DNA of 64,000 nucleotides from Rippkaea orientalis PCC 8801 (GTDB lineage Bacteria > Cyanobacteriota > Cyanobacteriia > Cyanobacteriales > Microcystaceae). A model generated the notes under the pieces. That model was not told the DNA's origin, did no database searches, and saw only the letters and a list, made by a program, of their open reading frames with translations. Position 1 is the first letter of the stretch. Every line of letters starts with the position of its first letter. Both the position numbers and the translations under genes were made by a program. The stretch spans positions 992,001-1,056,000 of the forward strand of contig NC_011726.1 in the NCBI RefSeq assembly GCF_000021805.1. Direction: 5' to 3'. Below, piece by piece: positions 26,476 through 58,236 of this stretch.

Positions 26476-26570
26476 GATTGTAGGGTTATTGACTCATCTT
26501 TAACCAACTAAAAATCTGAGACGTTGTTAACGTCAATTCTACGTTCAGTTTTAACTCAAACAACTTCAGT

Positions 26571-26631
26571 ACGGGCGGGTTTTTGAGAATAATTATGATA
26601 TCAACAAATATGCTAGATAAACCCGCCCCTA
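26571..26631. repeat. Solo REP-like hairpin (GGGCGGGTTT ... AAACCCGCCCCTA)
   Basis: ACGGGCGGGTTT and AAACCCGCCCCTA are inverted arms around a loop of about 36 bases. The arms match the B-type hairpins of the array around the transposase gene at 57.4 kb. Confidence 0.8.
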
Positions 26632-26676
26632 TGACTTCTGACTTCTGACTTCGTTAATAAGCCCCTACTGACTTCT
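26632..26676. repeat. TGACTTC x3 heptamers plus inverted AGTCAGTAGGGGCTTA element
   Basis: Three exact TGACTTC heptamers (26632-26652) abut the REP-like hairpin, and are followed by GTTAATAAGCCCCTACTGACTT, the inverted and permuted form of the element at 16303-16336. Confidence 0.65.
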
Positions 26677-55008: not shown

Positions 55009-55171
55009 GAGGCTGTCTCCTTCGTGATGCAAGTTATCTTCTTTTCCAAACTTATTATTATACCGAAATTAGGGAGCATTTACATTATATTTTTTTTAAG
55101 TTAGTTAATGAATCCAGCACTCTGAACTGGCTGAGTCGAAAAAGAGAATTTGAATATGAGAATTTATGCTC

Positions 55172-55292
55172 AAAACCTGCCCTATCCCCACGATAACCTA
55201 GGTTAATTTTAATATTGATGTTGATGGTGAGAGGGCGGGTTTATGTTAATTGAGGATAGGAGGCATGGGTTATGGAAGAAACCCGCCCCTAC
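55172..55292. repeat. REP-like composite, right half of A hairpin plus complete B hairpin
   Basis: CAAAACCTGCCCTA, then the linker CACGATAACCTAGGTTAAT, then a complete B hairpin (GAGAGGGCGGGTTT ... AAACCCGCCCCTAC, 55229-55292). It is the same order as in the array around 57.3 kb and lies 22 bp from the antitoxin stop codon. Confidence 0.85.
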
Positions 55293-55314
55293 GCAAAAAT
55301 AAAAAACTATGAAG

Positions 55315-57036: not shown

Positions 57037-57447
57037 AGGGCGGGTTGATGTTAATTTTAGGATGGGTAGCATAGGTTATAGAAAAAACCCGCCCCTACGA
57101 TGGGACTAATGGTATAAGATTTCGTAGGGGCAGGTTTAGCGAGGATTTTGGTTATTATCGAGGAGTTATGTCCAAAACCTGCCCTACCCCCACGATAACC
57201 TCAGTTAATTTCAATATTGCCGTTGACGGTAAGAGGACGGGTTGATATTAATTGGGGAAGAATAACATTTTATTGCGTAGGGGCAGGTTTAGCGAGGATT
57301 TTAATTGTTATCGAGGAATGATGTCCAAAACCTGCCCTACCTCCACGATAACCTTGGTTAATTTGAATATTAGCATTGATGGTGAGAGGGCGGGTTTATG
57401 TTAATTTGGAATAGGTGGCATAGGTTATATAAGAAACCCGCCCCTAC
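57037..57447. repeat. REP-like array left of the RAYT gene (B1, A1, B', A2, B3)
   Basis: A chain of imperfect hairpins. A-type (GTAGGGGCAGGTTT ... AAAACCTGCCCTA) at 57123-57186 and 57276-57340, and B-type (GGGCGGGTT ... AAACCCGCCCCTAC) at 57037-57098 and 57385-57447, plus an incomplete B' at 57232. A1 and A2 start exactly 153 bp apart. A and B point towards each other, with a conserved linker CACGATAACC..GGTTAAT. The last arm ends four bases before the transposase stop codon. Before 57037 the gap to the PEP-CTERM gene shows nothing recognisable apart from a partial A loop at 57007-57030. Confidence 0.9.
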
Positions 57448-57451
57448 GAAG

Positions 57452-57943
57452 TTATTTATGATCTGGATCTTGTAACCAATTTTTCGGGTTATTAACAATA
57501 TATTCCCGAATACGGTTTAAATCCGATTCATTGCGAATAATATGTTCATAATAATTGCGTTGCCATACAGGAACATTAGGTGATTGACGTATCCGATTAA
57601 TTTGTCTCGCAGAAAAAGTTTTAAACCCGCGAATAATTTCAGGTATTCCTTTGCGTTTAATATTATATTTTTGATCAGTTAAGACCAAAATTCCATGTAA
57701 ATGATTAGGCATAATCACAAAATTATCCAGTTGTAAATAAGAATAGTAATGAGTTAACTTTTGCCAATTACATTCAACCGTATTGCCCAATAAATTTAGT
57801 TTCATTTTATCATTAATAATTTCACCAAATAGATATTCTTTTTGATAAGTACAAAGGGTAATAAAATAGGCTCCTGATTGAGAATAATCATAATTGTTTA
57901 AGCGAATAGAATGACGATGGTGAATATCTGGGTTATATTTCAT
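57452..57943 (-). CDS. REP-associated tyrosine transposase (RAYT, Y1_Tnp)
   Basis: A 163-residue HUH-superfamily protein: RHSIRLNNYDYSQSGAYFITLCTYQKE at the N-terminus is the IS200-like/RAYT pattern, and the metal-binding HUH motif lies in VIMPNHLHGIL. The catalytic Tyr is likely in REYIVNNPKNW or the YYEHIIRNESDL segment. Bacterial RAYTs recognise and cut REP hairpins with a GTAG foot. This one sits 4 bp (stop side) and 17 bp (start side) from REP-like hairpins, whose 5' foot is GTAG. It is therefore likely the enzyme that maintains these repeats. Intact, no frameshift. Confidence 0.9.
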   Translation of the reverse strand: MKYNPDIHHRHSIRLNNYDYSQSGAYFITLCTYQKEYLFGEIINDKMKLNLLGNTVECNWQKLTHYYSYLQLDNFVIMPNHLHGILVLTDQKYNIKRKGIPEIIRGFKTFSARQINRIRQSPNVPVWQRNYYEHIIRNESDLNRIREYIVNNPKNWLQDPDHK

Positions 57944-57956
57944 AGTGAAAAATGAT

Positions 57957-58236
57957 GTTTGTAGGGACAGGTTTAGCGAGGATTTTGGTTATTATCGAGG
58001 AATTATATTCAAAACCTGCCCTATCCCCAAGATAACCTGGGTTAATTCCAATATTGGCGTTGACGGTGAGAGGACGGGTTGATATTAAGTTAGGATGAAT
58101 AATATTTTATTTCGTAGGGGCAGGTTTAGCGAGGATTTTGGTTGTTATCGAGGAATTATATTCAAAACCTGCCCTATCGCTACGATAACCTAGGTTAATT
58201 TTAATATTGGCGTTGACGGTGAGAAGGCGGGTTTTA
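57957..58236. repeat. REP-like array right of the RAYT gene (A3, B', A4, B5)
   Basis: A hairpins at 57960-58024 and 58113-58176, starting exactly 153 bp apart, with an incomplete B' (from 58070) between them and the left arm of a further B (58221-58236). The order and spacing repeat those of the left array; the two arrays are near copies that flank the transposase gene. After 58236 the sequence is unique leader DNA of the sugar kinase. Confidence 0.9.

Follow-up and report, generated by a model that had tools for sequence, protein, structure and literature searches.

Long-loop REP-like hairpins around a RAYT gene of Rippkaea orientalis PCC 8801 and their association with one clade of RAYTs

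REPs are among the commonest repeats of bacteria, and the rules by which RAYTs select and disseminate them are still being worked out. The locus described here belongs to a window of 64,000 nucleotides, i.e., the whole stretch of DNA analyzed, from the genome of Rippkaea orientalis PCC 8801 (4.79 Mb, four contigs). A RAYT gene is enclosed there by GTAG-footed hairpins with long loops (Table 1).

Table 1. Features of the RAYT locus and related hairpins; positions are those of the window.
Feature	Position	Strand	Remarks
RAYT gene	57452..57943	minus	163 aa; HUH (H81, H83), Y148, WQ motif
B1, complete long-loop hairpin	57037..57098	minus	minus-strand GTAG foot, 25 bp from A1, feet facing each other
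A1, long-loop hairpin	57124..57187	plus	feet at both ends (GTAG...CTAC)
Incomplete B, left arm only	57234..57276		closes the first 153-bp unit
A2, long-loop hairpin	57277..57340	plus	feet at both ends
B2, complete long-loop hairpin	57387..57447	minus	foot 4 bp from the RAYT stop codon
A3, long-loop hairpin	57961..58024	plus	17 bp upstream of the RAYT start codon (minus-strand gene)
Incomplete B, left arm only	58071..58113		closes the first 153-bp unit of the second array
A4, long-loop hairpin	58114..58177	plus	
First array copy (two A, linkers, B pieces)	57121..57397	plus	88% identical to the second
Second array copy	57958..58234	plus	88% identity with the first
Outlying piece: A right half, linker, complete B	55160..55293		lies between ilvC and the next gene, some 1.8 kb off the array
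Dispersed long-loop hairpin, another loop subfamily	26569..26632	plus	

Transposases of the IS200/IS605 family possess an HUH/Y1 core and recognize hairpins of single-stranded DNA; the window RAYT shares this core, with fold matches of its model. The protein matched Y1_Tnp (PF01797) with 26.9 bits (cut-off 23) and the NCBIfam RAYT model with 75.4 bits, just under the cut-off of 80. No solved structure was matched by sequence at 0.001; with the AlphaFold2 model (mean pLDDT 84.2, pTM 0.80), the best solved fold was 4er8 (E 1.8e-7, query TM 0.57), in which a RAYT is complexed with a REP hairpin. The HUH motif and the catalytic tyrosine are thus embedded in a Y1_Tnp fold, and the protein is an HUH/Y1 RAYT. 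Residues H81, H83, W127, Q128 and Y148, invariant across 14 aligned rows, are the predicted catalytic and foot-contact residues, as follows from the motifs in the excerpted text of PMC6006769. The motifs of the window protein are NHLH, WQ and YIVNNP, and relatives of its clade show NHIH or NHFH.

Along the plus strand, the elements follow one another in the order B1, A1, half B, A2, B2, gene, A3, half B, A4 and the end of a half B. The two near-copy arrays that a preliminary description had seen around the gene were recovered (88% identity between 57121-57397 and 57958-58234, along 277 nt), and so was their spacing of 4 and 17 bp from the transposase gene, the B foot ending at 57447 and the A foot starting at 57961. 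The A hairpins had been described as starting exactly 153 bp apart in both pairs; the spacing is correct, but the GTAG feet lie at 57124, 57277, 57961 and 58114, one base later than had been reported. Each A pair does contain an incomplete B, represented by its left arm only (at 57234 and 58071). In addition, two complete B hairpins (B1 and B2) run opposite to A, in agreement with the mutual inversion of A and B proposed there.

The third A copy, GTAGGGACAGG, carries one change in its arm. With up to two mismatches allowed, the arm GTAGGGGCRGGTTT occurs 10 times in the window, whereas 100 shuffled versions contained 0.61 on average and never more than 3. When folded as single-stranded DNA, the four A hairpins gave z values from -3.36 to -3.60 and the two B hairpins -2.17 and -2.75, with 0 to 4 of 200 shuffles folding as well as each of them. 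A GTAG foot 0-2 nt before the stem and a basal stem of 9-10 bp fit the canonical REP rules (stem of 7-20 nt) in the excerpts of PMC6006769; the loops, of 36-39 nt and with weak inner pairing in the folds, fall outside the canonical loop rule (2-5 nt, or else a bulge with another stem beyond it). Hence, the loop is indeed much longer than that of enterobacterial REPs, as had been claimed, and long loops are shared by all loci of the RAYT clade described below.

The comparison with known systems reveals both likenesses and differences. As in the TnpAREP/REP system of E. coli, an HUH/Y1 protein (fold match 4er8) is accompanied by repeats that have a GTAG foot immediately before a GC-rich stem, flank the gene and are dispersed; unlike the REPs of E. 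coli, which have a short loop and a bulge, the hairpins leave about 37 nt unpaired. The TnpAREP subclass 2.4, abundant in cyanobacteria and possessing "double foot" REPs (PMC6006769, in part), shares with the window the WQ and YIxNNP motifs, the flanking repeats and some double-footed elements; the HUH motif of the window protein (NHLH) departs from the NH[IFV]H given for that subclass, which the NHIH or NHFH of its clade relatives does fit. According to the same excerpts, the automatic search of that survey required a stem of 7-20 nt, with either 2-5 nt in the loop or a bulge followed by a further stem, some classes being inspected by hand; because of this loop limit, the long-loop hairpins lie outside the automatic rule. 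GTAG-15 and GTAG-16, cyanobacterial repeats (Cyanothece, Anabaena) monitored in strains 8801 and 8802 (PMC3733652, in part), have a GTAG foot as well. However, loops of 9-15 nt are reported for GTAG-15, from which the hairpins studied here differ in loop size. According to the same source, the inner region of GTAG-14 can be complementary over as many as 27 bp, and repeats with unusual loops were discarded. As in REPINs and BIMEs, the A and B hairpins are inverted and joined by short linkers; unlike them, both partners are complete hairpins in their own right, each of about 60 nt, and the dispersed copies read in the window's genome look, by eye, mostly single. A limited literature search, covering listings and text passages, found no description of a long-loop REP class, and the arm GTAGGGGCGGGTT had no match in the text of the papers searched.

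The flanks of 114 RAYT genes from the window's order (taken here as the cyanobacteria), some 700 bp to the left and to the right of each gene, were scanned for hairpins, defined as a GTAG foot directly followed by a 9-bp stem with 8 of 9 positions paired. A wider filter also admitted a GTGG foot, stems of lower GC content and the last 60 bases of the gene; it counted a double-footed hairpin once and omitted palindromes of the GCGATCGC type. The loci comprised five from the window's genome, 29 supplied by the search for relatives and 80 chosen from among the matches that it listed; the first 60 of these 80 were taken in list order (G252:C244 was skipped) and the last 20 from lower down, partly picked for repeat-rich genomes. 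The stricter first count yielded 356 feet versus 1.65 expected in dinucleotide shuffles. With the wider filter, 369 hairpins were retrieved, whose loops measured 2-5 nt (101 hairpins), 6-30 nt (11), 31-42 nt (224) or 43-76 nt (33). Since the copies in one array are not independent, the count per locus weighs more: 53 loci were long, 25 short, and 36 had none. Two assignments had to be revised in this process: L003 had passed as "long" through a GCGATCGC palindrome, a type omitted in the final filter, and L082, classed as "none" by the narrower first filter, was corrected by the wider one. The orientation of the nearest feet, facing the gene, was discarded as a finding, since a double-footed hairpin yields it by construction.

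The analysis of the phylogenetic trees revealed that the long loop goes with the window's RAYT clade. All 40 loci of this clade are long-loop and none of them has a hairpin whose loop is 5 nt or shorter, a count to be read knowing that the clade was delimited on the 113-row tree with the hairpin classes displayed, and hence was not chosen blind. The 74 loci outside the clade are long in 13 cases, short in 25 and without hairpin in 36. When the last 20 loci are left aside, the classes become 44 long, 22 short and 28 none, with 37 of 37 clade loci long. The first tree comprised 113 rows (L199 was too short); in the second one, of 106 rows, seven more were omitted (six for long branches or distance, one for shortness), and 39 of the 40 clade members stand on one side of a branch with 99/99 support. 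On this second tree, long versus short amounts to four changes. Eight of the 13 long-loop loci outside the clade have the stem GGGCGAAGC and five have other stems (GGACACGGC, GGGCATGGC and GGTGGGCAA are among the stems seen); since the stems differ, the loop size of about 37 nt recurs within the RAYT family.

A further set of 80 named RAYT loci, which shares some genes with the set of 114, included 10 that are cyanobacterial by title (five long, two short, three none) and 70 that are not (37 short, 31 none, two long). Each of the two long loci outside the cyanobacteria has a single odd stem, which may be a chance product. At eight of the 70 loci not cyanobacterial by title, the stem GGGC[AG]GGTT was found with a 3-nt loop. 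Because the non-cyanobacterial loci are mostly short and the same stem has a 3-nt loop in these eight, the long loop would seem to be an enlargement of an ordinary REP that took place in cyanobacteria.

The stem itself was analyzed on 196 distinct elements collected without requiring pairing at two stem positions. Among 29 changed left arms, 16 face the exact complement on the right and 10 are mispaired with the unchanged consensus; of 27 changed right arms, 16 are matched and eight lie opposite the consensus. In 59 non-redundant long-loop elements of the clade, a set in which arm conservation is partly imposed by selection of the elements, the loop on the foot strand contains 12% G, 37% A, 22% C and 28.5% T; its sequence is very variable, with weak base preferences. 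Sequence comparison by itself shows the foot and its stem, the size of the loop and the link of the hairpin to one clade of RAYTs.

Counted per strand, so that a double-footed hairpin counts twice, 7,360 long-loop sites were found in 110 of the 291 genomes of the order, versus 239 sites in 41 genomes (91 of them in a single genome) in which the identical stem encloses a spacer of 1-29 nt; the reversed control gave 0 in the rows of both counts. All of the 36 genomes with a clade RAYT carry sites, from 5 to 596 with a median of 57, the hairpins beside the gene being included. This link, together with the 40 long and 0 short clade loci, upholds the original proposal that the RAYT and the repeat form a cognate pair. 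The median of the 255 other genomes is 0; 74 of them have at least one site and 39 of these 20 or more, and clade RAYTs may remain among the 255, since, for example, L314 (G197) and L335 (G161) have long-loop flanks. A profile search for RAYTs covered 32 genomes, nearly all repeat-rich: in seven of them no RAYT match was found at 1e-6, and several more had distant RAYTs only. G274 has 161 sites in eight contigs and no RAYT match at 1e-6, and G111 and G190, with 46 sites each, have no RAYT match; some of the repeat-rich genomes without a match are drafts, which could miss a gene. In G075, with 167 sites, the RAYT read adjoins short-loop hairpins with another stem. The preliminary description had named abundant repeats in genomes without such a RAYT as an argument against the pairing, and this argument applies in part, given the sites in 74 of the 255 other genomes, some of which lack a cognate RAYT by the profile search. 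A strict dependence on a cognate RAYT was accordingly rejected, many-copy genomes without one having been found. Loss of the RAYT after the spread of the repeats, a case mentioned for E. coli strains in the excerpts of PMC3733652, would explain such genomes, as would the action of another enzyme. Four genomes of the window's genus (G169, G182, G221 and G246; 2.5-3.1 Mb) have no RAYT among the matches listed at 1e-20 and no long-loop site.

G141 contains 143 long-spacer and 91 short-spacer sites. At its locus L317 (about 1755-1832), hairpins of the same stem with a 3-nt loop lie between two matching halves of a RAYT gene, resembling the in-gene REP insertions of subclass 2.4 (PMC6006769, in part).

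In the window's genome, the exact arm GTAGGGGCRGGTTT occurs 17 times versus 0 for the reversed control; the window RAYT is thus flanked by GTAG-footed repeats whose arms recur elsewhere in the genome. The genome-wide search for the A unit, which had been suggested beforehand, gave a divided answer: the unit as a whole is private to the locus (four copies and a piece at 55158-55238 of the window), and it is the arm pair that is dispersed, with other loops. The idea that the array is a member of one genome-wide repeat family was abandoned, the other matches being arm-only or weak (at best 74% over 61 nt, E 0.003). The dispersed copies read look, by eye, mostly single rather than arranged in inverted pairs, such as the A and B pair present at the locus. 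The genome harbors five RAYT-like genes, and the four others adjoin, by eye, other GTAG hairpin families: GTAGGGGCGAGGTTTCCTCGCCC beside the first, a tandem array of GTAGGGGCATAAT and GTAGGGGTTTAAC types beside the second, GTAGGGTGGGCAAA with a 36-nt loop beside the third and GTAGGGTGGGCATTGCCCACC with a short loop beside the fourth (the strict hairpin filter detects the second and third of these loci and misses the first and last). The last two of these loci, L062 (RAYT4) and L063 (RAYT5), encode proteins that are sisters in the tree and have near-same stems (GGTGGGCA) with a loop of 36 nt in one case and a short loop in the other, and they represent a natural pair for a swap test.

As for movement, the suggestion that the duplicated array records an amplification or transposition event is plausible: a direct repeat of at least 50 bp from flank to flank occurs in 26 of 40 clade loci versus 23 of 74 others. 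The closest relative of the window RAYT among the matches listed belongs to G262 (77% identity). The surroundings of the two genes differ, in that, of seven window proteins compared with the 6.5 kb surrounding the G262 gene, the RAYT alone has a match there; homologous A hairpins are located on both sides of the gene in both genomes, with 24-27 of 37 loop bases matching (shuffled A3 loops gave a mean of 10 and a maximum of 21 in 2,000). G034 and G281 each possess two gene copies, 88% identical, whose colinear similarity stops inside the flanks examined. In G034, the similarity starts at AATTT-GTAG on the left in both copies and ends on the right at CTAC in one of them; this right end is not exact, because the array of the other copy goes on. 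Two copies in different flanks in each of these genomes are hinting, at the level of sequence, that gene and array may be able to move as a whole unit. Not every copy has moved, since the pairs L085/L091 and L080/L125 are syntenic beyond their arrays.

Other data concern the dispersed hairpins. Near-identical loops are found at many places in G262, and none of 30 loci read there (28 distinct elements) lies inside an open frame of at least 100 codons. The motif TAAGT..ACAAAATTAATTACAC often precedes the copies in G262 (L376-L405) and in the window's genome (L377-L399), and an inverted AATTAATTTTG was found within the next 160 nt at nine of 18 places read in the former and three of 11 in the latter. 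At 11 of 12 places found in the window's genome, the GTGGGCAATGCCCAC family (seven places) or the long-loop family (four) occupies, by eye, the same spot. Such a pattern would be expected if two REP families had inserted at sites of one kind, and an exchange of cores through recombination is another possible origin; the arrangement resembles the nesting described for GTAG-15 dimers of A. variabilis, some of which lie inside long palindromes (PMC3733652, in part). In G262, moreover, seven dispersed copies of one 27-bp GTAG arm pair have a 6-nt spacer (L368-L374), and six of the seven have a further loop-like stretch and a right arm within 60 nt.

The whole of these data would probably be best accounted for by a REPtron of a long-loop class, in which the RAYT would act in trans on single-stranded long-loop REPs, nicking and disseminating them, with arrays growing beside its gene. 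The enzyme would most likely recognize the GTAG foot in single-stranded DNA and then the 9-10 bp stem (GGGCRGGTT / AACCYGCCC), which closes a loop of constant length (about 34-40 nt). Nicking and rejoining would take place beside the foot, so that hairpins of about 62-66 nt might be copied or moved in trans to other intergenic places, while A-linker-B arrays would grow beside the gene. Binding, nicking and movement are here attributed to the long-loop RAYT by analogy with studied RAYTs, which read foot, stem and specific unpaired bases (PMC8266576, in part). Since the same stem has a 3-nt loop beside other RAYTs, including the one at L317 in G141, we infer that the loop size is read or needed by the clade RAYT. 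It might simply be inherited; against this stands the recurrence of about 37 nt with other stems in the family.

Other explanations have to be weighed against the long-loop REPtron. The long-loop hairpin might be a collapsed REPIN, i.e., two inverted REP half-sites joined after the loss of their inner halves, each end being a separate foot and the whole being mobilized as a small inverted-repeat element. Double-footed copies do exist (A1 and A2 in the window and two of the 28 distinct G262 elements), and the excerpts of PMC6006769 allow that double-foot REPs could come from the central deletion of an inverted pair. Nevertheless, 26 of the 28 distinct G262 elements have no intact second foot directly after the right stem, the arms alone form no hairpin by eye, and the same arms are ordinary 3-nt-loop REPs at the eight non-cyanobacterial loci, which makes this origin unlikely. 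It is also conceivable that the dispersed hairpins are kept as regulatory structures of RNA or DNA, such as stabilizers of 3' ends, and that the link with the RAYT is a relic. Their absence from open frames at the 30 G262 loci, the compensation in the stem, which fits RNA equally well, and the large populations persisting where no cognate RAYT was found are in line with it. We regard it as very improbable, though, given that the hairpin class is tied to the RAYT tree throughout the clade, that near-identical loops recur at many G262 places and that two REP families occupy the same spot of host sequence.

A narrower alternative concerns the arrays around the gene and not the dispersed copies: they might have arisen through slippage or unequal exchange, as plain tandem duplications to which the transposase contributed nothing. 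The head-to-tail period of 153 bp, the 88% identity of the two copies and the similar arrays at other clade loci speak for such an origin, which, however, leaves unexplained the dispersed copies, the link in 36 of 36 genomes and the gene-plus-array copies in the different flanks of G034 and G281; on balance, it seems rather doubtful. Going beyond the long-loop REPtron as set out above, these units might be live self-moving elements made of gene and array with GTAG ends, and not domesticated transposases. The dispersed hairpins would then be short, non-autonomous products of such elements, and the loop of about 37 nt would be a functional portion of the substrate, having arisen several times from a short-loop REP; this broader reading is offered tentatively, and we hold it to be rather improbable.

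A loop rule of 2-5 nt misses the long-loop class, in spite of its 7,360 sites against the 239 in which the same stem has a spacer of 1-29 nt. The occurrence of one stem in a long-loop and in a 3-nt-loop form beside different RAYTs provides a natural pair with which what the enzyme reads can be tested. That one enzyme clade is accompanied by a loop of a second, fixed size suggests a little-noticed second format for a common bacterial repeat.
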